IMG/VR virus record: IMGVR_UViG_3300032116_001150
Location: 1-26,316 of that record
DNA from: a virus
Direction: 5' to 3' (one strand)
DNA: 26,316 nt
The translations under genes and the position numbers were made by a program. The notes beneath the pieces are model-generated. The model worked only from the letters and a program-made list of their open reading frames with translations, was not told the DNA's origin and searched no databases. Positions 3,570-24,739 of the stretch are shown here, one piece after another (the stretch's first letter is position 1; every line of letters starts with the position of its first letter).

Positions 3570-3575
3570 TATCCT
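3570..3575 (+). promoter_or_regulatory. Leaderless-type -10 TATCCT for gene at 3582
   Basis: TATCCT lies exactly 6 nt before the ATG at 3582, and no Shine-Dalgarno sequence is present. This is the geometry of a leaderless promoter with transcription starting at or next to the A of ATG. The following TCGGGT spacer resembles that of the gene at 10831 (TCGGGC). Confidence 0.6.
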
Positions 3576-3581
3576 TCGGGT

Positions 3582-3968
3582 ATGCCCTTCGTCTCCGACC
3601 GCCAGCGGCGCTTCTTCCACACGGAGTCCGCGCGCAAGCACGGCATCACCCCTGCCATGGTGCGGGAGTATGACGACGCGTCGCGTGACCAGCGCATCCC
3701 GGAGCGTGCTGAAAAGCACGCAGCAACCGGCGTTGGCGCAACGAGCGGCGCGACAAGCGGTGTATCCACTGCTGTGTCAGCGCCGAAGCCGCCGTCCATG
3801 GGCTCGCCCAAGTACAAGAGCGAGGGCGCACAACATGGGCCTCTGCGCCAACCCTCGCCCGGGGACTACAAGCAGAACTTCTTGGAGTCTTCGGCCTCTG
3901 CCGCTCAGCGCTCGACCGCTGACAAATTCGAAGCGGGAGAGCAAGCCACGTTGCCGGTGACCCGATGA
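3582..3968 (+). CDS. Small conserved phage protein (MPFVS-Q-R-R N-terminal domain)
   Basis: The 128-residue product starts MPFVSDRQRRFFHTESARK and continues to MVREYDDAS and RIPERAEKH. Short phage proteins beginning MPF.S..QRR followed by an E(W/Y)...(A/T)(T/S)...(L/I)PE pattern are widespread in structural regions, though their role is not established. Only about the first 50 residues match this pattern. The rest is Ser/Ala/Pro-rich and probably disordered. There is no Shine-Dalgarno site; a TATCCT box six nt upstream indicates a leaderless start. The stop overlaps the next ATG (ATGA at 3965), so it begins a coupled four-gene operon running to the tail terminator candidate. Confidence 0.75.
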   Translation: MPFVSDRQRRFFHTESARKHGITPAMVREYDDASRDQRIPERAEKHAATGVGATSGATSGVSTAVSAPKPPSMGSPKYKSEGAQHGPLRQPSPGDYKQNFLESSASAAQRSTADKFEAGEQATLPVTR

Positions 3969-4642
3969 GGACAACGGAGCAACGCCTTCAACATGTTGTG
4001 CCTGTCACCGAAGGCACGGGTGTCGCCTCTCCCGCGAGTCGATCCGGTGAAGCCTCGCGAAAGGAAGAGGTTCCGCTCGGAGTCAGCGGCTCCTTCAACG
4101 CGAACGACTTCTTCAACTGGTACGATCGGCCTGTCGACGAGGGGCCCCCATACGCCGTAAAGGGCGCGGCCCACGCACACGACCGCATGGAGGAGCGCAC
4201 GCCCTTCGCGCGTAGCAACGTGGCCCCTTTGCAGCGGGCCATCGACGCGATGGGCCTCCCGCCCGGGCGCTACCACCTGCCTCTACGTGGTCGCGATGGA
4301 CGTGTCTTGGGCTACGCGCAGTTCAAGAGCGTGCCGGGCCGCGCCAGCCCCGTGCTGGCTACCGTGCTGGGGCGCGAAATGCAGCCCAGCGGCATGGACC
4401 TTGGGACCTTCGTCAAAGGCGCGGGCCTCTCTCCCGAAACAAACGTGACTCCCGTCGCTGAGGGCAAGTTCGACACCGACAATCTCGACCCCCGACTCCC
4501 AGAGTCGAAGGCCTGGAACCTCGCGCACACGCTGGCCGGGAGCCAAGAGACCAAGCACTACGCCATGCGGCGCGCGTTCAATCACATGTCGGAGCCGACG
4601 GGTGAAGCCCAAGAATCCGCCGGGAGCCCCCCGCAGCCATGA
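3965..4642 (+). CDS. Phage protein with DUF4258-like HxxxRMxER segment
   Basis: The gene encodes 225 residues and starts inside the preceding stop (ATGA). After a disordered first 50 residues, a compact domain at about 65-140 contains AHAHDRMEER, then a helix, GLPPGRYHLPL, and GYAQF...LATVLGREM. The H..(x)R(M)xER opening followed by a strand ending in TVL resembles the DUF4258 / RelE-like small fold found in toxins and in phage proteins. I infer a fold relation only, with no evidence of RNase activity. The C-terminus is charged and helical. Its position in the neck operon favours a virion or assembly role. One copy of the repeated CGCCGTAAAG lies in it (4153-4162). The stop overlaps the next ATG. 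Confidence 0.7.
   Translation: MRTTEQRLQHVVPVTEGTGVASPASRSGEASRKEEVPLGVSGSFNANDFFNWYDRPVDEGPPYAVKGAAHAHDRMEERTPFARSNVAPLQRAIDAMGLPPGRYHLPLRGRDGRVLGYAQFKSVPGRASPVLATVLGREMQPSGMDLGTFVKGAGLSPETNVTPVAEGKFDTDNLDPRLPESKAWNLAHTLAGSQETKHYAMRRAFNHMSEPTGEAQESAGSPPQP
4153..4162 (+). repeat. CGCCGTAAAG motif, copy 2
   Basis: Coding, read as part of YAVKG in the DUF4258-like gene. Confidence 0.6.
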
Positions 4643-5463
4643 ACCTGAAGATCACACGCCTCAGCGCGCTCTTCCCGTACGGCTACTTCGTGCAGTGGAC
4701 GATCGACAGCGTTTCTCCCACAGAGAGCGGTGTCTTCCTCTTTACGCTGTATCGAAGCGGCGGCCCGGAAGGTCCATGGGAACAGATCTTCTCTGGAACG
4801 GACCAGTACGCGTTTAAGGACGCCTTCAACTCCATCGCGTCGACGCTCGACAACCTTCAACCCAACTCCCTGCGCCTCTTTCAAGAGGTTCACTACCGCG
4901 TCGTTTGCCTCTTGCCATCCGGCGCGCAACTGGAGTGTCGAGAAGAAACGGGCCCCGCGTTTACCGACCGCAAGATGTCTCAGTACTTGCGAAAGACGCA
5001 GCGCGACTTCCGTTTGACGCTCAAGTTCAACGGCACACGCGTCGTCGTTCTGAAGCGTCGCAGATGGGGGGAGCGCTGCTTGAAGTGCACCGACAAGCGC
5101 ACCAAAGAAGTCGTACGCCCCAACTGCGTCACGTGCTGGGGCACCGGCTTCGTTGGGGGCTACTGGACGCCCTTCGTGACCTACGCACGCAGCAACGTGA
5201 CGTCCAACACCTCGAATGTGGGGCCCAACCAAAAGAGCGACGCCAATGACGGCTCGTTCTGGCTCCCCGACTATCCGACCCTTGAGCGAGACGACGTGCT
5301 CGTGCGCCTGTCCGACAATCGGCGTTTCCGGCTGGATCAACAGGTCGAGACGCAGATTCAGCTGAATTCCGCGCACCAAGAGGTGTCGGGCCAAGAGCTC
5401 CCACACGACAACGTACTCTATCGGTACGCTCTCAACCCGAACGCGATCGAGCCGTTGTACTGA
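4639..5463 (+). CDS. Neck/head-completion candidate: Fn3-like domain plus Cys4 knuckle
   Basis: The gene encodes 274 residues and is coupled to the previous gene by an ATGA overlap. The N-terminal ~100 residues look like a fibronectin-III-like beta sandwich (YFVQWTIDS, FTLYRSGGPEGPW, VHYRVVCLLPSG). A basic segment (VVVLKRRRWGERC) leads into a zinc-binding knuckle with C147, C150, C163 and C166, the last pair in CVTCWGTGFVGGYW. The C-terminal half contains beta strands and a second compact domain. To my recollection similar proteins with this order occur in other large myoviruses, uncharacterised. Between capsid and sheath genes, the expected jobs are head completion, neck or head-tail joining. 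The domain description is fairly secure; the exact role is inference. Confidence 0.75.
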   Translation: MNLKITRLSALFPYGYFVQWTIDSVSPTESGVFLFTLYRSGGPEGPWEQIFSGTDQYAFKDAFNSIASTLDNLQPNSLRLFQEVHYRVVCLLPSGAQLECREETGPAFTDRKMSQYLRKTQRDFRLTLKFNGTRVVVLKRRRWGERCLKCTDKRTKEVVRPNCVTCWGTGFVGGYWTPFVTYARSNVTSNTSNVGPNQKSDANDGSFWLPDYPTLERDDVLVRLSDNRRFRLDQQVETQIQLNSAHQEVSGQELPHDNVLYRYALNPNAIEPLY

Positions 5464-5465
5464 AC

Positions 5466-6167
5466 ATGACCAACGTCCGCCCGTTCTTTGGAACAGCCCG
5501 AGTCGATGACCAGCACTCGGACATTTTCCCCGGCTCCCCGATGGCCCTCGTCGCGGTGCTCACCAACTGCCTTCAAGCGCGGTTCAGCGGAAGCAACGCC
5601 CTAGACAACCCCTACATCTGGGCCGCTGACGCGCAGCCACTGAACCCCGAGACGGGACAGACTCGAATCTACATCGAGAGCCAGTACACCGACGAGCCCG
5701 ACGCACGCGATCGAACGCCATCCCTCTTGGTAGAAAAGGGCGTAACGCAGCCGCAACAAGTAGCCGTCGGTCATCGCGCCGACATCGACTTGCCCTCGAT
5801 GACAGAGCTGTTCATCGCGTGGGCCAATGTGCCCCTGTCCGTGCTCTGTATCGGGAGGACGCGCGGAGTCAGCGCCACGCTCGCCGACGTGGTGTTCGCG
5901 TTTTTGCTCGGCTCCCGCAACCACATTCGGGAAGCGTTCAGCATTCACGACATCACGGCTCCAACGCTGAGCGACACGCAGCCCTACCGACCGACGAGCT
6001 CCAACGTCGAGTCCTGGGTCACGACCGTGACCCTGACGACGATGATCAAGTTCGCGTGGCGTACGCGCCCCATCGCCCCGCTCCTCAAGGAGATCGCGGC
6101 AAAAATGAACTTCGGAAACGAAGATGCACTCGAACTGCGCGCGCTCGACCTTCGCAACGCGCGATGA
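5466..6167 (+). CDS. Probable tail terminator/completion protein
   Basis: ATG at 5466 lies two nt after the previous stop. The 233-residue product contains an alpha/beta layout typical of tail terminators: TRIYIESQYTDEPDARDRTPSLLVEKG (strands and a TPSLLVEKG turn, about 61-87 in all), a middle strand PLSVLCIGRTRG, a helix LADVVFAFLLGSRNHIRE, and a C-terminal strand pair with W (SWVTTVTLTTMIKFAW). In myovirus maps a protein of this size lies immediately before the sheath gene and caps the tail, like T4 gp15. No catalytic motif is present. Its coupling to the neck candidate upstream supports the assignment. The call is by architecture and position; a different minor tail protein is possible. 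Confidence 0.65.
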   Translation: MTNVRPFFGTARVDDQHSDIFPGSPMALVAVLTNCLQARFSGSNALDNPYIWAADAQPLNPETGQTRIYIESQYTDEPDARDRTPSLLVEKGVTQPQQVAVGHRADIDLPSMTELFIAWANVPLSVLCIGRTRGVSATLADVVFAFLLGSRNHIREAFSIHDITAPTLSDTQPYRPTSSNVESWVTTVTLTTMIKFAWRTRPIAPLLKEIAAKMNFGNEDALELRALDLRNAR

Positions 6168-6173
6168 GCGCAA

Positions 6174-6183
6174 CGCCGTAAAG
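6174..6183 (+). repeat. CGCCGTAAAG motif, copy 3 (intergenic)
   Basis: Lies between the tail terminator and sheath genes, just upstream of the TATCTT box. Confidence 0.6.
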
Positions 6184-6189
6184 AACTCC

Positions 6190-6195
6190 TATCTT
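6190..6195 (+). promoter_or_regulatory. -10-like TATCTT before tail sheath gene
   Basis: TATCTT is followed by a 25-nt stretch containing GGAGAGG (6208 onwards) just before the ATG at 6221. A copy of CGCCGTAAAG (6174-6183) lies seven nt upstream of the box, the only intergenic copy of that repeat. Confidence 0.5.
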
Positions 6196-6220
6196 TCAGC
6201 CGACAGCGGAGAGGAACACC

Positions 6221-9200
6221 ATGGCACGCCCCCTCGTTCTCATCTTTCAAGAGCTGGCGCAGCCGCAGGCGACGCCGAACACGCCCGATCTCAACACCGT
6301 CGTGTTGGGTCCGGCGTACGACCTGTTCGACTACCCCGATGATGCGAGCACCATCCTGCTCACGTCGGCGTACGGACAGCTGGAGTCCCGCGCGGGCAAC
6401 GGCACGTACACGGGCTATCAGCCGCCCGCGTCCGGGAGCGCAGCCGTCACCGTGCTCGACGGGGGATACCCCGGCCAGAGCGCAGGATCGAAGGTCGATC
6501 ACGACTCCGTCAAGGCCGTGCTGCGCCTGCCGCACGTCGTCCTCGGCTCCACCTACCTGAACGCGCTGATCGCTCCGGTGTTCGGGGGCAGCGTCACGAC
6601 GACCTCGGCGGATCGCACGCTCGTGTCGATCACGGGCGGCGTCACGACAGACTTCGTCGCGGCGGGGATCCAGCCGGGCGACAAGATCATCCTCACGTCG
6701 TCGCAGGCGGGAGTCGAACAGACCGTCGTGCGCGTCGTTCAGAGCGTGGGCGAGCCCAACGGCTCGGGCCTCGTGGCGCCGGGCAACGAGAACAAGCTCC
6801 GTCTGACGCAGCAGCTCCCCGACTCCGGCGTGGGCCTGGGCCAGTGGACCTACGACGCGAACGGCGAGATCCGCATCGAGCGCACGCTGGCGTCGCAGGA
6901 CCTGCTCGACCCCACGGACACGATCGTGACGTTCCCGGAGCCCGGATCCGACAAGCTCGTGATCAAGGGCGGCATCACGCTGTCGGTGCAGCTGACGCCC
7001 GTCGCCACGGTCGCAGTGCCCGCCCCGGCCACCACGACCGCGTCGCGCGCGCTGTCCTACGCCGAGCTGTATCTGGCGTACCGAGCGCTTCGTCAGGACC
7101 TTCAGGAAGTGGGGTCCGTGACGGCCGATGACGTGCGCGTCGTCGGTGGTGTCTCGACCCTCTTGGGCCTCGGCAAGATCGACAGCCGAAACCCCCTCGC
7201 GGTCGGCGTCTACCTCGCCCTGCAGAACGGCGGCGCAGTGCCGATCTACTTCTACGGCGTCGCCACCGACGACGCAGCGGGCCACACGGCTGCGCGCGGC
7301 GCGCTGTCCCCCAGGCGTGATCTGTACTGCTTCATCCCGCTCACGCAGGACATCAACATCCACGCCGCGTACAAGGCGGAGTTCGACCAGCTCGCGGACC
7401 CCAACTTCGCGCAGACGAACGGGGTGATCCAGAAGTTCCGCATCGTGCTCGGTTCGATTCCGCTGCCCACGACGGAAGCGATCTACTCGGGCTCGATCTC
7501 GGGCGTGTCGCAGCAGCCCTCGGGCGTCAACACGGCGAAGTACCGCACCGTCTCGCTCGCAGCAGCTTCCACGGGCTCGATCAGCGTGCAATCCGTGCTG
7601 CCGGGCGACTCCGTCACGATCGGCCTGACGCCCAGCTCCTCGGACTGGCAGAACAGGCGTGGAACGCACACGCTCGGACACGTCAACAGCTCGAAGAACT
7701 ACCCGAACCCCGGTGACCCGAGCGCTTTCGAAGTGGTGCCCGGCTCGTCGCGTTGGGACGACGCGGCGGGAGCCGTCGCGGGGGACATCGAAGTCCTGAT
7801 CCGCGCGCCCGACGGCACGGTCAAGGTGTCGAACCTCGCGCAGGTCGACATCTCCACCGGCGCCGGTGGAACGCTCGGAACCGCGCGTTACACCATGAAG
7901 AACCCCACGACCGTGGGCGGCCCGTACACCATCACGTACGTCGCCAGCCCCGGTCTGCCCGCCGTCACGGTCTCGATTGCGGGCTTCGCGATCACCGTCA
8001 CGGTCGACGGCACCACGCACACGCACACGCAGGTCGTGAACGCCGTAAACGCCCATTCGGTCGTCTCGGCGCTGTTGCTCGCGGGCGTGCAGGCAGGTGG
8101 CGCGCAGGTCGTCGACCCCGCGACCCAGGCGACGCGCGACGCGCTCACCGGGCAAACCGGCGCGGCGGCGAGCATCGTCGCTGGCGCAGGCGGCGGCCAG
8201 ATGCGAATCACGGGCGTGTCCGGCATGTCAGCGCTGAGCGTTGGCCGCTACCTGACCATCACGGGAGCAGCGAGCCCCGCGAACAACGGAACGTTCCTGA
8301 TCTCCGCGTTCGGCGGCGCCACCCAGGTAGACGTCGTCAACGCGGGCGCGGTGATCCCGGACGCCAACAACGGCGCGCTCGGCTGGACCGAGCGCTACGC
8401 GTACACCTCCGTCGTGCCCGTGACCGGATCGTGCACGGCGACCGTCGCGCTCAACGACGATCTGTTCAACCGACTGGAGGACGCGAGCGCGTCGTTCCTG
8501 ACGGCGGGAGTCCTTCCGGGAGACACCATCGAGTTCCCGCTCGATCCGAACAACTACGGACCGACGGCGTACGACGGGCGCGTGCTCAGCTACAAGGTGA
8601 GCACCGTCCAGAACGAGAACAGGCTGCTGATCGCCAACGGAGAGGATGACTCGGGCTCCGTCGCCAAGGAGCTCCCGCACTTCTTCGCGCGCGATCTTCA
8701 GGACCGCTTCATCGACAACACCACGCCGAACGCGCAGAACTACCGGATCCTGCGCGCCCTTTCGCTGGAAGATCAGCTGCTCGCCCTCGTGACGATCGCA
8801 CAGTCGGTGCGATCGAAGCGCCTGACGGTGATGTGGCCCGATCAAGTTGAAGTCGCGGATCTCCGCGACGGCGCTCTCGCTCGCGCGGTGCCCACGACCC
8901 GAACCCTCGCCGGACTTCAGCCGAGCTTCTACCTCGCCTGCGCCGTCGGCGGCGTGATCGCAGGAATTCCCCCGCAGGCGGGTCTCACGAACGGAACCTT
9001 CATCGGGTTCACGAAGCTGGTCCACTCGCAGGGCTACTTCAGCGAGCCCCAGCTGTCTCGCCTCTCCGACGGCGGGCTGTTCGTGTGCGTGCAGCGCACG
9101 CCCAGCGCGCTGCCCGAGTGCATCCACCAGCTGACGACGGACCCGACGGCCATCGAGACGGGTGAGCTCTCGGTAGTCAAGAACGTGGACTTCATCTCCA

Positions 9201-9460
9201 TGTTCATGCAGGACATCCTGGAGACGTTTATTGGTCAGTACAACGTGCTGCCCGAGACGGTGAACGAACTGGCGCGCGCGGTGTCGGATGGCGCCGAGCA
9301 GCTCAAGGGCCGGCGCGTCGCGCGCTTCGGTCCCCCCCTTCTCGAAGGGTCAATCAGCTCGATCGGCGTCAGCGAATTCGCTGCCGATCGCATCGAGCTC
9401 TTCTTCAACGGTCGCGTGGCTCGCCCGTTGAACACGGTGGCCTTCCACCTCGTGGTGTGA
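6221..9460 (+). CDS. Tail sheath protein, unusually large
   Basis: The gene encodes 1079 residues from an ATG with GGAGAGG upstream. The C-terminal ~190 residues carry the sheath core pattern: VPTTRTLAGLQPSFYLACAVG..., GIPPQAGLTN, a KLV.S.GYFSE.QL..L.DGGLFV region, then FIGQYNVLPETVN and a final beta strand ending in FHLVV. The N-terminus (VLIFQELAQPQATPNTPDL) and the strand-rich region around 230-420 suit the outer domains. Contractile sheaths are usually 350-700 residues; the excess is a large insertion at about 470-830. It includes a module (about 567-640) shared with the proteins at 12334 and 25190. The sheath assembles around the tube and contracts during infection. A GTGA overlap couples it to the next gene. 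Confidence 0.88.
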   Translation: MARPLVLIFQELAQPQATPNTPDLNTVVLGPAYDLFDYPDDASTILLTSAYGQLESRAGNGTYTGYQPPASGSAAVTVLDGGYPGQSAGSKVDHDSVKAVLRLPHVVLGSTYLNALIAPVFGGSVTTTSADRTLVSITGGVTTDFVAAGIQPGDKIILTSSQAGVEQTVVRVVQSVGEPNGSGLVAPGNENKLRLTQQLPDSGVGLGQWTYDANGEIRIERTLASQDLLDPTDTIVTFPEPGSDKLVIKGGITLSVQLTPVATVAVPAPATTTASRALSYAELYLAYRALRQDLQEVGSVTADDVRVVGGVSTLLGLGKIDSRNPLAVGVYLALQNGGAVPIYFYGVATDDAAGHTAARGALSPRRDLYCFIPLTQDINIHAAYKAEFDQLADPNFAQTNGVIQKFRIVLGSIPLPTTEAIYSGSISGVSQQPSGVNTAKYRTVSLAAASTGSISVQSVLPGDSVTIGLTPSSSDWQNRRGTHTLGHVNSSKNYPNPGDPSAFEVVPGSSRWDDAAGAVAGDIEVLIRAPDGTVKVSNLAQVDISTGAGGTLGTARYTMKNPTTVGGPYTITYVASPGLPAVTVSIAGFAITVTVDGTTHTHTQVVNAVNAHSVVSALLLAGVQAGGAQVVDPATQATRDALTGQTGAAASIVAGAGGGQMRITGVSGMSALSVGRYLTITGAASPANNGTFLISAFGGATQVDVVNAGAVIPDANNGALGWTERYAYTSVVPVTGSCTATVALNDDLFNRLEDASASFLTAGVLPGDTIEFPLDPNNYGPTAYDGRVLSYKVSTVQNENRLLIANGEDDSGSVAKELPHFFARDLQDRFIDNTTPNAQNYRILRALSLEDQLLALVTIAQSVRSKRLTVMWPDQVEVADLRDGALARAVPTTRTLAGLQPSFYLACAVGGVIAGIPPQAGLTNGTFIGFTKLVHSQGYFSEPQLSRLSDGGLFVCVQRTPSALPECIHQLTTDPTAIETGELSVVKNVDFISMFMQDILETFIGQYNVLPETVNELARAVSDGAEQLKGRRVARFGPPLLEGSISSIGVSEFAADRIELFFNGRVARPLNTVAFHLVV

Positions 9461-9999
9461 CCCTGATGGACGCGAAACAAAAAATCGCGTTCTGGGGCGC
9501 CATCGCGCGAGGCGCAGGAAGCGCCATGCGTGGTGCCGGCAACTTCGGAAAGGGGTTGTTCGGAGCGGGCGCTCTTGCCTCTGCAGGTCGCGGAGGAAAA
9601 GCCCTGAACATGGCCGGCAAAGCGACGGGCGTGATCGCGCCCGTGGCGGGCGCCATGGCTGCCGGACAGGGCGCGTCCGTCATGGGTATCGGCGGTCAAC
9701 CCAAGACGGGGTCTCTCGTCCTCGACGCTGTCGGCCTGAAGGTGGCGAACTTGGGAGCCAGCGATCTCGCTGACATCGCGAGCTACGGCTCCTTCATCGG
9801 AGCCAAGCTCGTGGACCCTCACACCCACCCCAAGCTGCACGCGGCGCTCGACGCGGCGGGGCTCCTTGGTCTTGGCGCTACGACCGCGCACAGCCTCGCA
9901 ACGAACCCGGCTGATCGAGGACCCTCCGCAAAAGACCTCGCCGGTCTCGCCCTCATGGGCTCAGCGCTCTATGACCGCGCGAAGGCGCACGGGCACTGA
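9457..9999 (+). CDS. Gly/Ala-rich hydrophobic protein, unknown
   Basis: The likely start is the GTG at 9457, overlapping the sheath stop as GTGA; an ATG three codons later (9466) is the alternative. The 180-residue product is very rich in Gly and Ala with several glycine-zipper hydrophobic stretches (about 15-75, 128-145, 157-170), so it may associate with membrane or form a flexible assembly. I do not recognise a family. Placed between sheath and tube genes it is probably a virion or tail-assembly protein. Glycine-zipper segments also occur in injected phage proteins that insert in the host membrane, but nothing proves that here. Confidence 0.7.
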   Translation: MTLMDAKQKIAFWGAIARGAGSAMRGAGNFGKGLFGAGALASAGRGGKALNMAGKATGVIAPVAGAMAAGQGASVMGIGGQPKTGSLVLDAVGLKVANLGASDLADIASYGSFIGAKLVDPHTHPKLHAALDAAGLLGLGATTAHSLATNPADRGPSAKDLAGLALMGSALYDRAKAHGH

Positions 10000-10009
10000 A
10001 CCCAGATCC

Positions 10010-10015
10010 TATCCT
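10010..10015 (+). promoter_or_regulatory. -10-like TATCCT before tube-candidate gene
   Basis: TATCCT lies just after the preceding stop and 15 nt before the ATG at 10031, with GGAG at 10018-10021. The same hexamer is used, without a leader, before the gene at 3582. Confidence 0.4.
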
Positions 10016-10030
10016 ACGGAGTAGAGAGCC

Positions 10031-10816
10031 ATGCCTACGTACCCGATCGGCGTCACCAAGTCCCTGGCCACGTGGTCCCTTCAGCGGAACCACGTGGAAC
10101 GCGTCCTCGACAACGCCACGTACGACGCGGCGCACCCGGACGACACGCTGCTGCTCGCCGGTCCGGCGCGGCGCTCCGTCGCGCGCCCCGAGCGCAACAC
10201 CCCCCGCACCCTCATGGCGCTGGGGATGTTTACGGCGTTCGGAGTGCAGACCCAAGCGCCCGTGACGCCGATGATGGCGATCGGATCGGGCCGCTCTTAC
10301 TTCCTTCGAGGCAAGAGCCAGTCGTCTTGGAACGTGCAGCGCGTCATGATGAACGGCCGCAATCTCCTGCGGGCGCTCTATCACAACGCTGTCGAAGTGG
10401 GCGGGCTGAACCCTGACAAGTTCGACGACCCGGCCGCGTTCGAAGGCGCGCCGACCTCGCAGTTCTTCATCAACCTGGACTCGGAGCTCTTCTACATCCC
10501 CTTCGGCATGGCGGTCATCATGCGCACCAAGAGCCGGACGCTCGTCGCGTCCTGCTACCTGGAGCTCTGCATGATCAACTCCTGGGGCATGCAGATCGGC
10601 GCGGGTCAGGCGATGGTCATGGAGCAGGTCTCTGGCTTCTGCGACCGAATCCTGCCCTACCAAGCGTCGGACGCGATGGAAGTCCCCTCGGTGGGCCGCG
10701 CGCTCATGGACGCCGTCCTCGGGCTGGCGCCCAACGTCTTCCCCGAGCCCACGTACAACCGCATGGGAACGTTCGGGGATTCGGGCCTCGGCGACTCCAC
10801 CGTGAACGCTCTGTAG
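10031..10816 (+). CDS. Probable tail tube protein
   Basis: The gene encodes 261 residues from an ATG preceded by GGAG. The protein is strand-rich with strong codon optimisation, which matches an abundant virion component. A central stretch with ELFYIPFGMAVIMRT, then LVASCYLELCMINSWGMQIGAGQ, shows the alternating hydrophobic strands of a tube-type beta barrel. The tube gene normally follows the sheath gene, and only one small gene intervenes here. There is no diagnostic motif, so the call rests on position, expression class and predicted secondary structure. Another major structural protein is the alternative. Confidence 0.6.
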   Translation: MPTYPIGVTKSLATWSLQRNHVERVLDNATYDAAHPDDTLLLAGPARRSVARPERNTPRTLMALGMFTAFGVQTQAPVTPMMAIGSGRSYFLRGKSQSSWNVQRVMMNGRNLLRALYHNAVEVGGLNPDKFDDPAAFEGAPTSQFFINLDSELFYIPFGMAVIMRTKSRTLVASCYLELCMINSWGMQIGAGQAMVMEQVSGFCDRILPYQASDAMEVPSVGRALMDAVLGLAPNVFPEPTYNRMGTFGDSGLGDSTVNAL

Positions 10817-10824: not shown

Positions 10825-10830
10825 TCGGGC

Positions 10831-12285: not shown

Positions 12286-12287
12286 GC

Positions 12288-12293: not shown

Positions 12294-12301
12294 CCTCCCG
12301 C

Positions 12302-12321: not shown

Positions 12322-12333
12322 AAGGAGAAGCTC

Positions 12334-16455: not shown

Positions 16456-16459
16456 GCCC

Positions 16460-17613: not shown

Positions 17614-17656
17614 CCCTAAAAGGTGCTCTACTTTCGCGGAAAAGCAACGATTGACT

Positions 17657-17662
17657 TACGCT
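17657..17662 (+). promoter_or_regulatory. Leaderless-type -10 TACGCT for amidase gene
   Basis: TACGCT lies 5 nt before the ATG at 17668, and no Shine-Dalgarno site is present there. This favours the ATG over a GTG 15 codons upstream as the translation start. Confidence 0.5.
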
Positions 17663-17667
17663 TTGGC

Positions 17668-18588
17668 ATGAGCCTCGTCGTATACGGCCACCGCATCGAA
17701 GTGCCGAACAGCGCATGTTTCCTGGATCCCCCTGACGTCGTACGAACCGCGACCAGGGGGCAGGGGACGAAGATTCCAAAGCTCTCCGAAGTCACGCGTC
17801 GAGACCCTGCGAGCGACTGGATTCGCGGACACGTGACGCACACGACGTCGGGCACCGTTCGACGGCTCGACTCCAAGAGCCTGATCGAATCCGTGCGTGA
17901 CTGGGCTTACGCCCGGTACAACGCGAACGTCGATCACAAGTCGTGGACGCTGACGAAGGACCTGGACGAGTCCACCCTTCAGAACTCGGACCCCGGCACC
18001 GGAGCATCGTGGCACGCCGCGCAAGTCAATCGCTACACGGACGGCTGGGAGCTAGCGCAGACCCAAGAAGGAACGCTGACGCAGATCCAACTCGACGGCT
18101 ACGTGCGGCTGTGCGACGAGTGGTCGTATCACTGCGGGATTCCGCGTGTCATCGCGTGGCGAGACGGTCGTCCCTTCGCGGGGATGTTGACGCGCGCGCT
18201 GAGCGCGCACGGAGCTGGCGCATCCCTGTGCTTGTTCTACGGACACCGCAACATCTGGAGCGCCAACAAGGACACCGGCCGCCTGTACGCACAACGTGGC
18301 GCAGGCGATCCTTCTGATCTGCCATTCTTGGCGCTCAAGGCCGCAGGGTACATGTGCCTGGACGTCGAAGCCGGTGACGACTTGAAGCTATGGAAAGAGC
18401 TGCAAGCCTCCTTCGGTCTCGACCCCGATGGCATTCCGGGCCCCATGACGCGCGCAGCCATGATTCGCGCCGGGCGCTACGGCACCGGAGGCATGCTCGT
18501 GGCAAGGCCCGGAGACGAGACGCGAGGAGAACCTGCGTGGCTCCGCGCGCGCCCCCTCGCCTGGAAGCAGCGCGCAGGTCTCGCCTAA
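17668..18588 (+). CDS. Endolysin: N-acetylmuramoyl-L-alanine amidase with C-terminal PG-binding domain
   Basis: Using the ATG at 17668 (TACGCT box five nt upstream) the product has 306 residues; a GTG start at 17623 would add 15. The catalytic region resembles the Amidase_2/PGRP fold: HVTHTTSG (H58 as probable zinc ligand), a middle SWHAAQVNRYTDGW, and YGHRNIWSANKDTG (H193 as second ligand, DTG near the third). Residues ~240-268 match a PG_binding_1 repeat (LWKELQASFGLDPDGIPGPMT). It would cleave the bond between MurNAc and L-Ala in host peptidoglycan, for lysis or local wall digestion during entry. It has no signal peptide, so release would need a holin or equivalent; none is obvious beside it. 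Its 3' end overlaps the next minus gene by 4 nt. Confidence 0.78.
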   Translation: MSLVVYGHRIEVPNSACFLDPPDVVRTATRGQGTKIPKLSEVTRRDPASDWIRGHVTHTTSGTVRRLDSKSLIESVRDWAYARYNANVDHKSWTLTKDLDESTLQNSDPGTGASWHAAQVNRYTDGWELAQTQEGTLTQIQLDGYVRLCDEWSYHCGIPRVIAWRDGRPFAGMLTRALSAHGAGASLCLFYGHRNIWSANKDTGRLYAQRGAGDPSDLPFLALKAAGYMCLDVEAGDDLKLWKELQASFGLDPDGIPGPMTRAAMIRAGRYGTGGMLVARPGDETRGEPAWLRARPLAWKQRAGLA

Positions 18589-18854
18589 CCGCGATCCGCT
18601 TTACGCCGTTCGCTGCGCGGGGGGTTGAACACGAGCGCGGGAAGAACTTCGATCGTACGCTCCGGCTCGGGAAGGGCCACAACCACCTGGGGCTCCGGCA
18701 ACGGAACCTCCTCCCAGGAACGAACGAACACGATCTTCGACGTGTCCCCTTCGACTTGCGCTACGCGAGCGTCGAAGCCTTGTTCCTGGGGCACTGCGAG
18801 TGCGCCAGGAACGTAGAAGAGTCGACCACCACGTGTCACTGCTTTGAACGACAT
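18585..18854 (-). CDS. Small unknown protein
   Basis: ATG at 18854 has an excellent GGAGG six nt upstream. The 89-residue product is beta-rich in its first half (MSFKAVTRGGRLFYVPGALAVP) and Pro/Glu-rich in the second half (EEVPLPEPQVVVALPEPE), ending in a basic tail. I do not recognise it. It is transcribed divergently from the gene at 18889, and the two appear to share an almost symmetric -10 region (18872-18878). The strong ribosome site suggests good expression. Confidence 0.7.
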   Translation of the reverse strand: MSFKAVTRGGRLFYVPGALAVPQEQGFDARVAQVEGDTSKIVFVRSWEEVPLPEPQVVVALPEPERTIEVLPALVFNPPRSERRKADRG

Positions 18855-18871
18855 GCAAAACCTCCGTCTCC

Positions 18872-18878
18872 TACACTA
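18872..18878. promoter_or_regulatory. Shared symmetric -10 (TACACTA / TAGTGTA) of a divergent pair
   Basis: On the plus strand TACACT (18872-18877) stands 11 nt before the ATG at 18889. On the minus strand the overlapping TAGTGT (18878-18873) stands 18 nt before the ATG at 18854, with GGAGG between. One sequence could therefore serve as -10 for both directions. Confidence 0.45.
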
Positions 18879-18888
18879 AGACAACACC

Positions 18889-19272
18889 ATGGCGAAACAG
18901 ATCAAGCTCACGGGAAATCTGCTGGTTCAGCTCGCGGAGGGCGCGCAACCGGCGCCGATCCCCCTCAGCTTCGACATGTCGGGCACGGAGCAGATCATCT
19001 ACGGCTTCAACCATTTGACGCCCGTCTCGAATCAGCTCGTGCCTGCGGGGTCCGTAACCAATCCCCGTTTCATCCTGGTCTTTCTGTACGAGGGCTCGAT
19101 CAGCCTCGCCTGGAACGTCGCAGGAGACGGCGCGACCGTGCTCTCGGCGAACCCGACGCCCCCGCCGTCGGATCGGCCCCTGCTGATGCTCTTCCGCTAC
19201 AACGCTCCCGCCAGCTCGCTGTACTTGACCGTGCCCTCGAACGCGCGCGGCGAGATCTGGATGTTCGAGTAG
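18889..19272 (+). CDS. Small beta-rich protein, possible virion component
   Basis: The gene encodes 127 residues, has no Shine-Dalgarno site, and has TACACT 11 nt before the ATG. The sequence alternates hydrophobic strands (RFILVFLYEGSISLAW, PLLMLFRYNAPASSLYLTV) with Gly/Pro turns, typical of a single beta-sandwich domain, and ends in GEIWMFE. I do not recognise the family. Single beta-sandwich proteins of this size occur as decoration or fibre-associated proteins in phages, which is the best guess. Its stop lies two nt from the stop of the convergent minus gene. Confidence 0.65.
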   Translation: MAKQIKLTGNLLVQLAEGAQPAPIPLSFDMSGTEQIIYGFNHLTPVSNQLVPAGSVTNPRFILVFLYEGSISLAWNVAGDGATVLSANPTPPPSDRPLLMLFRYNAPASSLYLTVPSNARGEIWMFE

Positions 19273-19274
19273 CC

Positions 19275-19547
19275 TCAGCGAATCTGTACGTGCCAAAACG
19301 CGAGCTCGGGGCCCTTCGGACAAACGAGCAATACGTCTCCTGGTAGCGCGCTCGGCGCCGAGGCGTCCAAAGGCAGCGCACAGCCCGCCAGCGCCTCCAA
19401 CCGGGGGCCCAGCCCTGGCGTCACCAGAAACGCCTTGCGGCACTCCTGGAGAGCCGCAATCGCAGCCTGCGGCCCGAGGGGGCGGTACATCACCAGCGCC
19501 AGATGCGGAGGCAAGCTGCGCGGGGGTAGCGCGTCGAGGAGAATCAT
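19275..19547 (-). CDS. DUF1874 / AcrIII-1-like small protein, key motifs missing (tentative)
   Basis: The ATG at 19547 overlaps the thymidine kinase stop (ATGA), giving 90 residues and translational coupling. The order of elements resembles the DUF1874 (STIV B116 / AcrIII-1) family: an opening MILLDALPPRSLP, a helix around residues 24-34, then a FLVTPGLGPRLEALAG helix where the family has GH-x-S-T, then LPGDVLLV and an aromatic C-terminal strand. AcrIII-1 proteins cleave cyclic tetra-adenylate to switch off type III CRISPR immunity. Here the catalytic His and the NR motif are absent, so it would be inactive, have another ligand, or be unrelated. The family link is inference. Confidence 0.55.
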   Translation of the reverse strand: MILLDALPPRSLPPHLALVMYRPLGPQAAIAALQECRKAFLVTPGLGPRLEALAGCALPLDASAPSALPGDVLLVCPKGPELAFWHVQIR

Positions 19548-20119
19548 CGCCCCGTCGCCTTGACCCAGCACGAGCGGCACAGCGGGGCGTACGCGTCCCG
19601 CGCGCCGACAAGGACCTGCGCGTCGTTGGCCACAAGTCGATGCGACATGGAGCCGTTCTCGCTCTTGCAGTACGCGCAGATGGACTTGAACTTCAAGATC
19701 TCATCCGCGTGGGCAAGGAGCGTCGGAATGATGCCGAAAGGCGCGCCTCGAAAATCACGATCGAGCCCTGACGCGAAGACGGAAACACCGCGTGTGTGGA
19801 GCAGATGCAGCACCTCCTCCACCGCTGTGGAGGAAAAGAACTGCGCCTCATCCAACGCGACGAAGCGGACGTTTGCACGCACACGGGCCGCGAACGGTTC
19901 TCCAGGGTCGATCACCGTGACCTGAAAAGGCACCTGCAGGTCCGCGAGGTCCGTACCCGCGTGCGAGATCAAGCGCCCTTCTCGCCGCGTGTCCGTCGAA
20001 GGAGAAAAGATCTGCACCCCCACGTCAGCGTGGTACGCAAGTCGAATACGACGAAGCAGCTCCTCTGTTTTCCCAGAAAACATCGGGCCGCACGCAACCG
20101 TCAGCTTGCCTGCACTCAT
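19544..20119 (-). CDS. tdk: Thymidine kinase (TK1 type)
   Basis: The gene encodes 191 residues, the usual length for bacterial and phage TK1-type enzymes, which phosphorylate thymidine to dTMP for DNA synthesis. The Walker A loop is GPMFSGKT (11-18); DEAQFF (90-95) supplies the Walker B Asp and catalytic Glu91. GLDRDFRG (118-125) is the conserved GLD..F.G segment. A zinc site is formed by C148, C151, C181 and C184, and DAYAPLC (~175-181) is the substrate lasso. All expected motifs are intact. No Shine-Dalgarno site precedes the ATG. Instead a perfect inverted repeat (20121-20141) containing a TACGCT box lies two nt upstream. The stop overlaps the start of the small downstream gene. Confidence 0.95.
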   Translation of the reverse strand: MSAGKLTVACGPMFSGKTEELLRRIRLAYHADVGVQIFSPSTDTRREGRLISHAGTDLADLQVPFQVTVIDPGEPFAARVRANVRFVALDEAQFFSSTAVEEVLHLLHTRGVSVFASGLDRDFRGAPFGIIPTLLAHADEILKFKSICAYCKSENGSMSHRLVANDAQVLVGARDAYAPLCRSCWVKATGR

Positions 20120-20419: not shown

Positions 20420-20771
20420 CGGAGTCCTCGTCGGAAGTGAGCGCCCGCGCTGAGAGCAACCTCGAAAGCGCGGCGTTGCTCACGAGGCATGACAGAAAGA
20501 GCTTGGTGTTGCCTTCGAGCATGGCCATCGACGCGCTCGACGCGAAGTGCTGCATCCGAAGCAGCGTCTGCAGCGGATCTTCGTCTGCACATTCCGTCTC
20601 GAACGCGGCGTACGCATCGGCAACCGCCCGTTCGAAATCAACTTCTGCAGACGGATCAGCAGGCGCTGAATCGCTGCATCCGCAATGCGGCTTGACCGCC
20701 CCCGTGCTGAACGCAGGCACCACCCGCGTTTGGCGACAGCGGAGACAGACGTCAAACGGGACGTTGTGCAT
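20370..20771 (-). CDS. Small protein with N-terminal zinc ribbon-like Cys motif
   Basis: The ATG at 20771 is preceded by TAGACT exactly six nt upstream, a leaderless-type start. Of 133 residues, the first ~33 contain C9xxC12 and C30xC32, which could bind zinc. Residues ~43-110 are helical (FERAVADAYAAFETECADEDPLQTLL...), and the C-terminus is a run of Asp/Glu. The function is unknown; an adaptor or DNA-mimic-like acidic tail is speculation. Its -10 box overlaps the stop codon of the upstream zincin gene, so it has its own promoter. Confidence 0.65.
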   Translation of the reverse strand: MHNVPFDVCLRCRQTRVVPAFSTGAVKPHCGCSDSAPADPSAEVDFERAVADAYAAFETECADEDPLQTLLRMQHFASSASMAMLEGNTKLFLSCLVSNAALSRLLSARALTSDEDSDDDDDADLDGATSRDP

Positions 20772-20777
20772 ACCTAC

Positions 20778-20783
20778 AGTCTA
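20778..20783 (-). promoter_or_regulatory. Leaderless-type -10 TAGACT for gene at 20771
   Basis: On the minus strand TAGACT stands 6 nt before the ATG at 20771. Its first three bases are also the stop codon of the zincin gene ending at 20781. Confidence 0.55.
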
Positions 20784-21674
20784 ACCCGAATGATGCCGAT
20801 GCCGTCGATGATGGGGTTGCGCCGGCTGAGCGGGAAGTTGGCCAAGATTTCCTCCCATCGGCATACCGTTGTTGGACATCGTGTACTCGGCCGTGAGCCC
20901 TGGGTACAGCGTGAAGTTCCGCGCGAGCTGCGCTTGGCGCTCTTGCTCACGCACGGCGCTGTACGAATCGAAAGCCGCCGACAACGCAGGGAACGCGCGC
21001 TGAACCAACTCTGGGCTCGCGGTCTTCATGTAGAGCTCGACGACGCGGCGTGCGGCCCCGACCGAAGCGCGTTTAAAGAGGCGGCGCCCTGCAAGCGCAC
21101 CGGCCAACCCCGCGCCAAGGCCCAAAACGGGCTGAATAGAGTACGAGAGCATCGCGCCGCGCCGAAGATTATCCATGTCTTCCTGATTCCGCTCAGTGCC
21201 CCCCGCTTGCTGCAACAGACGCTTGCCCTCCTTCCATGCCGTGTGCTCTGAGAGCAACGTCGGCGCTGCCGAAAGCGCAAGCGCCACGGGCGCGGCCCCA
21301 TGGCGCAGCCAAGGCCGCTTCACAGAGGCGCCTGCCGCGCCTGCCGCCGCTGCGTAGAGCGGGGACAGCATGTGCGCGGCCCCCGCCATCCGATTTTGTA
21401 CAAGAGGCCCCCACCACTTTCGCTCTACCGCGTCATGGCCAAGCTCATGCGCAAGTAAGGGGACATGGTTCTTCAACTCCGGGTGCAATGTAACTTTGTG
21501 CTGCCCGAACGCAGGGCTACGATAGCCACCCAGCTCTTCTTGCTCGTCGTATTCCACCGGAACTTGCGCCTTCGCACGCAGACGCGCAAGAACGCGCTCG
21601 TCTCCGTCTTGAAATGGCGCCAGCTCATTCAGCTGCGCGCGGACTTTGGTCAGGCGCGCATCGGCAGAGCTCAC
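20781..21674 (-). CDS. Membrane-associated zincin (HELGH metallopeptidase-like)
   Basis: The ATG at 21674 overlaps the stop of the pyrophosphatase-like gene, so translation is coupled. The product has 297 residues. HELGH at 76-80 is an HExxH zinc site with Glu77 as base. LLSEHTAWKEG (~141-150) supplies E143 as a candidate third ligand, as in other phage zincins with an SE..A helix. Two or three hydrophobic Ala/Gly-rich stretches (~96-117, ~126-142, ~178-195) suggest membrane association. The C-terminus is Gln/Pro/His-rich (PHHRRHRHHSG). It probably cleaves a protein at or near the host membrane or in the virion; the substrate is unknown. YMKTASPELV lies near residue 216. Confidence 0.7.
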   Translation of the reverse strand: MSSADARLTKVRAQLNELAPFQDGDERVLARLRAKAQVPVEYDEQEELGGYRSPAFGQHKVTLHPELKNHVPLLAHELGHDAVERKWWGPLVQNRMAGAAHMLSPLYAAAAGAAGASVKRPWLRHGAAPVALALSAAPTLLSEHTAWKEGKRLLQQAGGTERNQEDMDNLRRGAMLSYSIQPVLGLGAGLAGALAGRRLFKRASVGAARRVVELYMKTASPELVQRAFPALSAAFDSYSAVREQERQAQLARNFTLYPGLTAEYTMSNNGMPMGGNLGQLPAQPAQPHHRRHRHHSG

Positions 21675-22429
21675 AGCGTCACGCTGCCTTCGAGGGGCAT
21701 TGACCCATTCGAAGACTCCGTCCCTGTGCTCGTCGTCTTCGCGTCGGCGCGATCAAAGACGCGCATGAGTCGGTCCTCGATCGACGCCTCTTCAGCGGGC
21801 GTCTGGCGATCGGGGTTGGGAGCGGCCACTACGTGGCCGCGAATCAGCTTGTCGATGTCCGCCTGCTTGAGGTCACTCAGCTTGTAGCGCGCGAGCACGG
21901 TCTTGAGCGCCGCTTCCTTTCGCGCAGCAGTGAGCAAACCCCGCTCAGCCGAAGCCGCGCGCTTCAAACGCGTGACGAAGTGCGCGGCCACGTCGCTGGA
22001 AGCCTTCATCTGTGCCGTCTTCACGTAGCGCTCCTTCTTCTTCAACTCGAACTTCTCCAGCGCTTCGCGCAGATGCTCCATGTCCCGAAAGACTCGACGC
22101 GCGTGGATCTCTTCGCCGTAAAGACGATAGATCGCCTCGCGCTCAGCGTCCGTGACGCCCACGAGGAACTTCGTTTCGTCGAGCTCCATTCCGCCTTCGG
22201 TGCGCGGCTTGAGCTTCTGGAAGGCTTCGTAGTGGCCCGTGGGTTCGTCGCCGACGAACGCATCGAGCCCCTCTCCATCCTCGCCCTTGAGCCCGGGAAA
22301 GTACCCGTAGTCGCACGGGTAGACGAAGCGCTTCTCTCCGCCATCTGGACGCGGCCAGACCTTGACCGTCCCCTTGGGTCGGTCAATGAAGAAATTCACG
22401 GTGGAGAATCGCTTACGCATCAGCGCCAT
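21671..22429 (-). CDS. Inorganic pyrophosphatase-like (phage InPase) protein with helical C-terminus
   Basis: The ATG at 22429 is six nt after a TATACT box; an ATG three codons later is an alternative. Of 252 residues, ~8-70 resemble the phage inorganic pyrophosphatase domain described in polyvalent proteins: FFIDRPKGTVKVWPRPDG, YPCDYGYFPGLKG and DGEGLDAFVGDEP. The last corresponds to the family I signature D-x-D-P-x-D, but here it is D51-G-E53-G-L-D56, with Glu for one Asp and Gly for Pro. The domain is shorter than cellular enzymes. Residues ~110-252 are charged and helical with VKTAQMKAS. It may hydrolyse PPi or a related phosphate compound, or be altered. The stop overlaps the zincin start. 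Confidence 0.72.
   Translation of the reverse strand: MALMRKRFSTVNFFIDRPKGTVKVWPRPDGGEKRFVYPCDYGYFPGLKGEDGEGLDAFVGDEPTGHYEAFQKLKPRTEGGMELDETKFLVGVTDAEREAIYRLYGEEIHARRVFRDMEHLREALEKFELKKKERYVKTAQMKASSDVAAHFVTRLKRAASAERGLLTAARKEAALKTVLARYKLSDLKQADIDKLIRGHVVAAPNPDRQTPAEEASIEDRLMRVFDRADAKTTSTGTESSNGSMPLEGSVTL
22114..22123 (+). repeat. CGCCGTAAAG motif, copy 5
   Basis: Lies antisense inside the minus-strand pyrophosphatase-like gene, so here it is not explained by the AVK codons. Confidence 0.6.
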
Positions 22430-22435
22430 ACGGAA

Positions 22436-22441
22436 AGTATA
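22436..22441 (-). promoter_or_regulatory. Leaderless-type -10 TATACT for pyrophosphatase-like gene
   Basis: TATACT on the minus strand stands exactly 6 nt before the ATG at 22429. It is 17 bp from the opposing TACACT box of the divergent gene. Confidence 0.6.
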
Positions 22442-22442: not shown

Positions 22443-22469
22443 CTGCAAGTTCAAGAGCTACACTTGCAG
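22443..22469. promoter_or_regulatory. Inverted repeat between divergent -10 boxes
   Basis: CTGCAAG (22443-22449) and CTTGCAG (22463-22469) are perfect 7-bp arms 13 bp apart. The arms abut or overlap the two leaderless -10 boxes, so a dimeric repressor could control both genes. No regulator is identified. Confidence 0.4.
22459..22464 (+). promoter_or_regulatory. Leaderless-type -10 TACACT for gene at 22471
   Basis: TACACT lies exactly 6 nt before the ATG at 22471, and no Shine-Dalgarno site is present. Confidence 0.6.
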
Positions 22470-22470
22470 C

Positions 22471-23676
22471 ATGCCTTCTCCGGTTGCCCTCTCGAAGTTC
22501 GTGGCGGCCCTGAAAATTGCCGCTGATTCCGAAGAGGAATCATCCCACGTTGGTCGGAATCTCGCGATGGGGGGAGCCGCGATGGCTCCATTTCTAGGGG
22601 CTATCGGACAGCAATCCGTGAAGCACGATCCCCTCCTTAACGAGAGCATCCAGCGGCACAAGACGCTGGCGGAGCTAGCGCGCCGCGCGCGCACTGGCGA
22701 CGTCCTCGTCACCAGCAAGCCCTCCGGCTCGTTCTGGAAATCGTTCATCCGGCCGCTGACCGGGTCTGAGTTCTATCACGTACAACCCGTCGTGGGTCGC
22801 CGAGGCGGGCAGGGCACCACGACGTCAGCAGGATCCTTTTCGGATCCCTCTTACGCGCAGGACACCCGCCAACAGCTTCGGCAACAATCCAGCAAGATTC
22901 CTGCTGAGATGAAACATCTCGGCTACGAAGACGCCGTTCTACTTCGCCCCAACAAGAAGCTGACCCCCGAACAGAAGCGTGTCTTCATCAAGGACATGAT
23001 GGGGCGCGCGCAGGCACCGTACAACACGGGAAACGCCGTAAAGACATGGCTGCACGACCTATTCGTGCCTAAGCTCGAAAGCCTGCAAAAAGGGAAAGAC
23101 CTCCCTGTCTGTGAGGGAGGAGTGTGTTCGTCGGCCCCCGCCATGGCCTACAACAAAGCGGGCATCCAAGTCGCCAAGGGCAAAGCCCAACGGAATGCGT
23201 TCCCCGGCGACTTTCTTCGCTCTGACGCTCTTCGCCCCGTGGGCGCGGTGGTGAAGAGCCCGTACTCCAAGGCTGTTGCTTTGCGAAAAGCTACGCCCTG
23301 GTTGGCCCGGGGTGCGGTCGGTGCGGGCCTCGCAGGGGGGATCTACGCCACAAGCGAAGACCCCGCCCTTCTCGGCGCCGTCCCAGGCGTTGTGGCAGGA
23401 AGCGCGCTGGGGGGAAAGCTCGAACAAGTGCTGCGCGGCAAAAAGGCGCCGGTACAGTCTATCCACGGGGGACTCATCGCCACCCTGATGGAAGCACGAA
23501 AGGGAGCCCGAAGGCGCCTCCTTCATCGCGCGCTCACCGGCCGCATTCCCGGGGCCCTACTCGGCGGAGGACTGGCGTACGGGGCTAGCCGAGCGTTGCA
23601 GGGCGCCCTCCGCCGCCCGTCGCCTTCCGAGGGGACAGGCGCTCCGCCCGTCGCGCAGCCCGCTCGTACGGGTTAG
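22471..23676 (+). CDS. Permuted papain-like (YiiX/NlpC-P60 type) protein with membrane tail
   Basis: The gene encodes 401 residues with a leaderless-type start. GDVLVTS (76-82), FYHVQPVVG (101-109, H103) and GVCSSAPAMAYNKAG (217-231, C219) follow the order of circularly permuted NlpC/P60 enzymes of the YiiX/YaeF group, in which the His precedes the nucleophilic Cys. PGDFLRSD (245-252) is the typical closing segment. Such enzymes cut or form amide, ester or thioester bonds in lipids, peptides or cell wall; the substrate here is unknown. The C-terminal third has Gly/Ala-rich hydrophobic stretches (~279-292, ~302-315, ~360-375), suggesting membrane association. N-terminal LKIAADSEEES contains the recurrent K-x-A motif. 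Its end overlaps a convergent gene by 92 nt. Confidence 0.7.
   Translation: MPSPVALSKFVAALKIAADSEEESSHVGRNLAMGGAAMAPFLGAIGQQSVKHDPLLNESIQRHKTLAELARRARTGDVLVTSKPSGSFWKSFIRPLTGSEFYHVQPVVGRRGGQGTTTSAGSFSDPSYAQDTRQQLRQQSSKIPAEMKHLGYEDAVLLRPNKKLTPEQKRVFIKDMMGRAQAPYNTGNAVKTWLHDLFVPKLESLQKGKDLPVCEGGVCSSAPAMAYNKAGIQVAKGKAQRNAFPGDFLRSDALRPVGAVVKSPYSKAVALRKATPWLARGAVGAGLAGGIYATSEDPALLGAVPGVVAGSALGGKLEQVLRGKKAPVQSIHGGLIATLMEARKGARRRLLHRALTGRIPGALLGGGLAYGASRALQGALRRPSPSEGTGAPPVAQPARTG
23034..23043 (+). repeat. CGCCGTAAAG motif, copy 6
   Basis: Coding, read as NAVKT in the papain-like gene. Confidence 0.6.
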
Positions 23677-23976: not shown

Positions 23977-24201
23977 CTACTCCTCCGCCCGAACCGCCGT
24001 CGTCCGCCCGCACCGTGGGCACAGCGGGTGTAGGCGCTTCGTCTCGATGCAGAACACAACATCTTCCTCGGGCGCGCAGCACGCCGTGAAGACGTGAGAA
24101 CAGGCGCAACGCACCTGTTGGGACTCCCCATCATCCACGATAACGGTGAAGATGGGCTCTGATGAAGATGGGAGAATCATGCAATCGACGACAGGCGGCA
24201 T
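23977..24201 (-). CDS. Small Cys-rich zinc-binding protein
   Basis: The ATG at 24201 has TAAATT exactly six nt upstream and GAGG further up; an internal ATG at 24180 lacks both. The 74-residue product contains C32xC34xH36, C41C42, C50 and C61PRC64G, probably one or two zinc sites, after a short strand-forming N-terminus. No specific family is recognised; it could bind nucleic acid or protein like other small zinc ribbons. The stop codon sits inside the Shine-Dalgarno site of the following zincin gene, so both are coupled. Confidence 0.65.
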   Translation of the reverse strand: MPPVVDCMILPSSSEPIFTVIVDDGESQQVRCACSHVFTACCAPEEDVVFCIETKRLHPLCPRCGRTTAVRAEE

Positions 24202-24207
24202 GTGGTG

Positions 24208-24213
24208 AATTTA
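24208..24213 (-). promoter_or_regulatory. Leaderless-type -10 TAAATT for zinc protein gene
   Basis: TAAATT on the minus strand stands 6 nt before the ATG at 24201. GAGG directly upstream of it would be too far for normal ribosome binding. Confidence 0.45.
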
Positions 24214-24239
24214 CCTCAAACGGTAAACTCGCACAAGTT

Positions 24240-24728
24240 TCACCCATGGCTGCGCGTCGTGTTCAAGTACCCCGAGCTGAGGCCTCCCCAGGCCGATTCC
24301 ATGTTGCGCTGCGTCTTCACCGCGCGCGCCATGGTCATGAACTGGTTTCGCATCCAGTCGGCCCACTGCTGGTAGAGCGCCTGCTTGTCGTCGATCCCGA
24401 TCGGCTGCACGTTGCCGTCCTGAACGGTGGCTTGGTTGCGCAGCTGGCGCATGCCCTCAGAGAGCATCAGATGCGAGATCGCGCCGTAGAGCGTCAGGGC
24501 ACGCGGAATCGACGCCATCCCGAGGCTCGTGACAGGCGTCATGACGTTGTACAGGTCGACCGCATGCCCCAGAGCCGCGTCAATGTCCGCGTCCGAGAAC
24601 TCGACGTTGTCGAGCAGGACATTGAGCGTGCCCGTGTCCTTGACCGGACCCGGGTAGTCCCGCATGAAACGCCGCACTTCAGCGCGCGTCGGGAAAGCTG
24701 ACGTGACGGGGTAGCCTACGACGGTCAT
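24240..24728 (-). CDS. Structural protein, possible head-tail connector
   Basis: The ATG at 24728 lies five nt after a TATTCT box. The 162-residue product has a short N-terminal strand and turn, then helices: FPTRAEVRRFMRDYPG, VEFSDADIDAALGHAVDLYN, SIPRALTLYGAISHLMLSEGMRQLRN, and a C-terminal helical region with YQQWADWMRNQFMTMARAVK. The pattern of an acidic D-x-D-I helix followed by a long Ala/Leu helix resembles HK97 gp6-like connector proteins and adaptor proteins of myoviruses. This is a fold-level guess without a diagnostic motif. It belongs to a minus-strand set of structural-looking genes reading away from the right edge. Confidence 0.65.
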   Translation of the reverse strand: MTVVGYPVTSAFPTRAEVRRFMRDYPGPVKDTGTLNVLLDNVEFSDADIDAALGHAVDLYNVMTPVTSLGMASIPRALTLYGAISHLMLSEGMRQLRNQATVQDGNVQPIGIDDKQALYQQWADWMRNQFMTMARAVKTQRNMESAWGGLSSGYLNTTRSHG

Positions 24729-24733
24729 ACCCA

Positions 24734-24739
24734 AGAATA
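24734..24739 (-). promoter_or_regulatory. Leaderless-type -10 TATTCT for connector-like gene
   Basis: TATTCT on the minus strand stands 5 nt before the ATG at 24728 and directly follows the preceding gene's stop codon. Confidence 0.5.

Follow-up and report, generated by a model that had tools for sequence, protein, structure and literature searches.

The window analysed here is a 26-kb virus record (26,316 nucleotides) with roughly 34 genes, ten of which start directly downstream of a TANNNT hexamer. All ten boxes and start codons listed in the initial annotation were found in the sequence, with a spacer of six nucleotides between box and start codon in eight cases and of five in the other two. 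The absence of a usable Shine-Dalgarno (SD) site was also borne out, since GGAG, GAGG and AGGA are missing 4–11 nucleotides upstream in 10/10 starts; the least clean of the ten is the start at 24201, which has a GAGG 12 nucleotides upstream. These genes are a minority of the total and many of the others are SD-led, so the description of the box as near-universal did not hold. The ten starts are listed below by the position of the start codon, together with orthologous starts in two relatives, G002 and G003.

3570–3584, plus strand: TATCCT (3570–3575), N6, ATG at 3582; 128-aa gene that follows the major capsid gene; box and spacing identical in G002 (TATCCTTTTAGTATG), with 56% protein identity
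10819–10833, plus strand: TACGCT (10819–10824), N6, ATG at 10831; baseplate-hub-like gene (phrog_430); TACGCT, N6, ATG in G002 and TACTAT, N5, ATG in G003
14514–14528, plus strand: TAGACT (14514–14519), N6, GTG at 14526; 73-aa gene whose substitutions are biased to the third position (9/9/25); TAAACT, N6, ATG in G002 despite a 3-nt indel at the coding start
17145–17159, minus strand: TACGTT (17154–17159), N6, ATG at 17147; 152-aa gene; TACGTT, N6, ATG in G002
17657–17670, plus strand: TACGCT (17657–17662), N5, ATG at 17668; endolysin-like gene; TAACCT, N6, ATG in G002 and TACACT, N6, ATG in G003
20769–20783, minus strand: TAGACT (20778–20783), N6, ATG at 20771; 133-aa gene; TAAAAT, N6, ATG in G002
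22427–22441, minus strand: TATACT (22436–22441), N6, ATG at 22429; inorganic-pyrophosphatase-like gene
22459–22473, plus strand: TACACT (22459–22464), N6, ATG at 22471; 401-aa gene, assigned on geometry only
24199–24213, minus strand: TAAATT (24208–24213), N6, ATG at 24201; 74-aa gene with CxC/CxxC pairs, assigned on geometry only
24726–24739, minus strand: TATTCT (24734–24739), N5, ATG at 24728; 162-aa gene; TATCGT, N6 in G002 and TACCCT, N7 in G003

Box-bearing orthologues were missing for three sites, 22429, 22471 and 24201; at 22429 this refers to an N-terminal orthologue with a box, and for the gene at 24201 no orthologue of any kind was found.

The same hexamer also lies 15–40 nucleotides upstream of SD-led genes of the window (488, 2062, 2620, 6221, 10031 and 12334), and at one further gene it is found at an intermediate distance.

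464–490, plus strand: TAACCT 18 nt before the SD-led ATG at 488; box kept in the G002 alignment
2038–2064, plus strand: TAACAT 18 nt before the ATG at 2062; leadered, in the G002 alignment
2587–2622, plus strand: TAACCT ahead of the major capsid gene, which is SD-led and has its ATG at 2620; in the G002 alignment
6190–6223, plus strand: TATCTT upstream of the SD-led ATG at 6221; present in G002 and G003 too
10010–10033, plus strand: TATCCT 15 nt before the ATG at 10031; TATCCT in G002, TAACAT in G003
12288–12336, plus strand: TATACT, a conserved hairpin and an SD, then the ATG at 12334
25985–26004, minus strand: TACTAT 11 nt before the ATG at 25987 (short-leader class); at 11 nt in G002, and TAGTAT at 9 nt in G003

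The hairpin of gene 12334 (GAGCCCT-ACTTAC-AGGGCTC, 12308–12333) follows the TATACT box and precedes the SD. Its counterpart in G002 has the stem CGGTCCT/AGGACCG and an unchanged loop, which amounts to three compensatory double changes.

A second record, G001 (L021), matches window positions 1–12148 at 99.99% identity and extends 19.6 kb upstream. The relatives are environmental phage contigs, 64–191 kb long among those analysed (G002–G008 and G010), and among cultured phages Salmonella phage Arash and Vibrio phages D69, D148 and D181 come closest. The window and G001 share homologous capsid, portal and RNA polymerase (RNAP) subunit genes with Arash, and the structural proteins of the window have few PHROGs matches. 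G002 is about 70% identical to the window in nucleotide sequence and differs in GC content (49% vs 65%).

We asked how often such boxes would be expected. The window contains seven copies of TANNNT-N6-ATG, vs 1.37 ± 1.18 in 100 dinucleotide shuffles, none of which reached seven. The enrichment predicted for the whole phage was seen in the window and did not continue beyond it, as the about 15 genes called in the 19.6 kb of G001 outside the window gave no further spacer-6 start; independent support therefore comes from the relatives. With gene starts taken from a simple home-made hexamer-score caller, the TANNNT-to-start spacing peaks at exactly six in the window phage and in seven relatives. 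Observed vs expected numbers at this spacing were 5 vs 0.2 for the window plus G001, 14 vs 1.8 for G002, 13 vs 0.9 for G003, 12 vs 1.0 for G007 and 7 vs 1.3 for G008, with 8 vs 1.5, 9 vs 1.4 and 10 vs 1.6 for G004, G005 and G010, which are close kin (capsid protein 96–97% identical) and do not count as three independent cases. The excess is weak in G006 (5 vs 3.1 expected), and the peak is absent from Arash (1 vs 3.0 expected) and D69 (4 vs 6.5 expected). As a guard against the choice of pattern, all 64 XYNNNZ patterns were scored at all spacings in the relatives, leaving out the window phage. TANNNT at spacer 6 ranked first of 4,672 pattern-spacing combinations in the seven relatives (73 vs 21 expected) and 3,965th in Arash plus D69. 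When TANNNT-N6-ATG was counted genome-wide, without gene calls, it was no more frequent than the reversed pattern in most relatives, because random ATGs swamp the signal; the restriction to called starts is needed.

The starts with a box at spacer 6 also differ from the rest in other ways. We compared 78 such starts with 1,137 others and found an SD core in 3% vs 49%, a pyrimidine at −1 in 86% vs 55%, and overlap with the upstream gene in 1/78 vs 293/1,137. Positional information is found at −12, −11 and −7, the consensus from −12 to −7 being TATACT or TANNNT, and 56% of the spacer-6 starts have C at −8, while 51% have T at −6. A fixed −35 element, which in sigma70-family promoters would lie about 17 nt upstream of the −10, is not visible in the position-wise information, and none was scored at the box-led genes in a consensus scan covering window positions 1–20000. 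However, TTG is concentrated at −36 to −33, where the beginning of a −35 element is expected if the start codon is +1: there are 19 occurrences over the 78 sites, most sites being without one, and the mean excess over shuffles is weak (3.09 vs 2.78 ± 0.09).

Comparison of orthologues gave a further line of evidence. G002 retains TANNNT at spacer 6 at seven orthologous starts, and in five ungapped window/G002 pairs T-12, A-11 and T-7 are all identical, with the spacer 50% and the upstream sequence 56% identical. Leaderless and leadered promoter boxes taken together are conserved in 13/14 cases, compared with 19/56 for other TANNNT hexamers in the alignment (Fisher p = 7e-5); the leaderless boxes taken by themselves gave p = 0.013. 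In distant pairs the boxes are kept in 7/7 (G005–G010), 6/7 (G005–G004) and 4/5 (G003–G002) cases, and they survive between orthologues that are 34–58% identical in protein and whose DNA similarity is largely gone. As judged from these alignments, the box layout is kept by natural selection across the environmental relatives.

The enrichment at one spacing, the exclusion of SD sites, the initiator base, the placement of the weak −35 signal and the deep conservation together lend good support to the leaderless class first proposed from the window, and the boxes very probably act as −10 elements in the promoters of leaderless genes. On these sequence data we regard it as highly likely that TANNNT is a sigma70-type −10 element, that about ten genes of the window are leaderless, and that its other transcription units are leadered and SD-led. 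A sigma70-family holoenzyme would read TANNNT at −12 to −7 as the −10 element. Because the promoter abuts the about ten genes, we infer that transcription would start at the first base (A or G) of the start codon, and that the resulting leaderless mRNAs would be translated without an SD, by direct 70S-type initiation. The other units would carry the same box 15–40 nucleotides upstream, followed by a short leader with an SD. Such a reproducible, conserved leaderless class in phages with their own RNA polymerase would make the start codons and promoters of uncultured phages predictable straight from sequence.

Which polymerase reads the boxes is a separate question. G001 encodes a 1,513-aa RNAP subunit (1602–6143), in which beta is fused to the N-terminal part of beta' and the NLDYDGD catalytic motif is near the C-terminus, and a separate 599-aa C-terminal part of beta' (7702–9501). 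Two sigma70-like proteins are found in each of G002, G003, G004, G010 and Arash, the corresponding gene region being outside the known part of the window phage, and the full-length class of these proteins aligns over region 2 with sigma factors of solved structure. With RNAP subunits in the phage and two sigma-like proteins in its relatives, phage-directed transcription is plausible. We slightly favour a phage-encoded RNAP with a phage sigma as the putative reader of the boxes, at least for the late (structural) genes. The fuller proposal, that this uncultured clade uses its own RNAP (beta-beta'N and beta'C) and two sigma70-like factors on −10-only promoters set against start codons, is tentative, and we hold it to be possible rather than probable. 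If true, for some of its genes the phage would bypass the host promoter code as well as the host SD system. The RNAP beta'C gene is itself box-led in G002 and G003; the window phage has TCTGGT at this place, without A-11, a point against the preferred reading. RNAP subunit genes appear leaderless in some relatives (G002 83514, G003 79901 and G007 175275, the last assigned to RNAP from its length and N-terminal sequence only), and that the large RNAP subunit ORF of G003 is about 1,990 aa long, with extra sequence inserted.

Alternatively, the boxes could be ordinary host sigma70/sigmaA promoters, with the phage mirroring a leaderless-rich host such as an actinomycete, Deinococcus, an acidobacterium, a myxobacterium or similar. 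We give this a substantial chance, though somewhat short of an even one. The consensus and spacing equal those of TA-led genes in leaderless-rich bacteria (PMC3160421, PMC12340547), about a quarter of the sites have the weak −35 TTG, and two cultured gammaproteobacterial relatives lack the class. Against this, the clade has a polymerase and sigma-like proteins of its own, and phages of leaderless-rich hosts reproduce the signal weakly at best: there is no spacer-6 peak in phiC31 (Streptomyces) or Mx8 (Myxococcus), and only a weak one (3 vs 1.0 expected, in the 50 kb tested) in Thermus phage P23-45. The middle and late genes of P23-45 are reportedly leaderless.

The proposal that leaderless genes point to a host in Actinomycetota or Deinococcota is not supported, given that the cultured relatives infect Gammaproteobacteria (Salmonella, Vibrio), that phiC31 and Mx8 lack the peak, and that leaderless genes are common in other phyla too: they make up 19% in Actinobacteria and 39% in Deinococcus-Thermus, and the TANNNT-led kind reaches 13.3% in Acidobacteria and 15.8% in delta-Proteobacteria (Zheng et al. 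2011, PMC3160421). A scan of genome contigs with the capsid alignment gave one match only, L061 (QMZE01000030.1), a phage contig with a 53% identical capsid protein binned in an Archaeoglobales MAG; this placement is probably a binning error and uninformative on the host. Since the Salmonella and Vibrio relatives are without the class, whether leaderlessness tracks the host or the phage transcription machinery is a testable question.

Known systems resemble the one described here in part. The TA-led leaderless genes of bacteria (Zheng et al. 2011, PMC3160421), including the Deinococcus −10-motif genes (PMC12340547), likewise have TANNNT some 12 bp ahead of the start and no SD, and are mixed with an SD-led class. 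Here, in contrast, the genes belong to a phage clade with its own RNAP subunits, the consensus leans to TATACT with a pyrimidine at −1, and the box-led share is about 3–13% of genes rather than about 20–40%. P23-45 similarly transcribes its middle and late genes from −10-type promoters with little −35 dependence (PMC7403470), but these are extended −10 promoters and the host RNAP is modified by phage proteins such as gp39. In Arash the capsid, portal, terminase, RNAP and sigma genes are homologous, and in D69 there are capsid and tail homologues plus a gene product annotated as a sigma factor; both nevertheless lack the leaderless class and have an SD use of 0.72 and 0.69, vs 0.27–0.53 in the environmental clade.

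A less likely variant of the leaderless reading is that the transcription start is displaced by a few bases in either direction, making the mRNAs near-leaderless rather than strictly leaderless. The relatives do show a second, lesser TANNNT peak at spacer 9, and spacers of 5–7 swap between orthologues. However, both the sharpness of the spacer-6 peak and the pyrimidine at −1 agree with a +1 at the start codon, and we consider the near-leaderless variant unlikely.

The non-virion RNAPs of AR9 and phiKZ also use short elements near the TSS for their late promoters and are phage-encoded and multisubunit (PMC5312081, PMC4666361). AR9 late promoters read AACA-N6-TA/G and have UTRs of 26–491 nt (PMC5312081), and we found no such AACA at −11 to −8 in combination with a TA/G at the TSS, the bases from −12 to −7 being TATACT or TANNNT. 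The phiKZ late promoters consist of TATG, its G being +1 (PMC4666361), and the real signal could in principle be a TATG that spans the start codon and is recognised by a phage polymerase without sigma. TATG does occur at several of the starts, yet of the 78 sites 63% have C at −1 and just 23% have T, on which ground we dropped this reading; the information at −12, −11 and −7 also argues against it, as do the recognisable sigma70-like proteins of the clade, since RNAP-encoding jumbo phages such as AR9 and phiKZ are reported to be without sigma homologues. We regard it as very improbable. Also tested and rejected for the class as a whole is an origin in upstream TAA/TAG stops that happen to lie close to a start codon, with a T added by chance: although the TAG of the box at 20771 doubles as the stop codon of the upstream gene, only 11/78 boxes across the clade coincide with an upstream stop and the enrichment and conservation are far above those of shuffled or unrelated patterns; single unsupported sites such as 24201 may still be due to chance.

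Several smaller features were also observed. The genes at 22429 (minus) and 22471 (plus) are divergent, with start codons 41 bp apart, and comparable leaderless pairs with starts 16 and 17 bp apart are found in G004 (69976–69993) and G003 (128765–128783). The G004 pair, CATGTCCTAAATTTAGGTCATG, is a near-palindrome with one box per strand, and one gene of such a pair may be spurious. Two further divergent leaderless genes of the window are separated by about 450 bp of extra sequence (17148–17667) compared with G002, where they are 74 bp apart. Finally, a KTAS/KTAG motif recurs in the window proteins encoded at 488–1054, 1240–1620 and 20781–21674 (QMPKTASTQ, TQTKTASAA, QTTKTASAL and LYMKTASPE), possibly as a processing or targeting signal.
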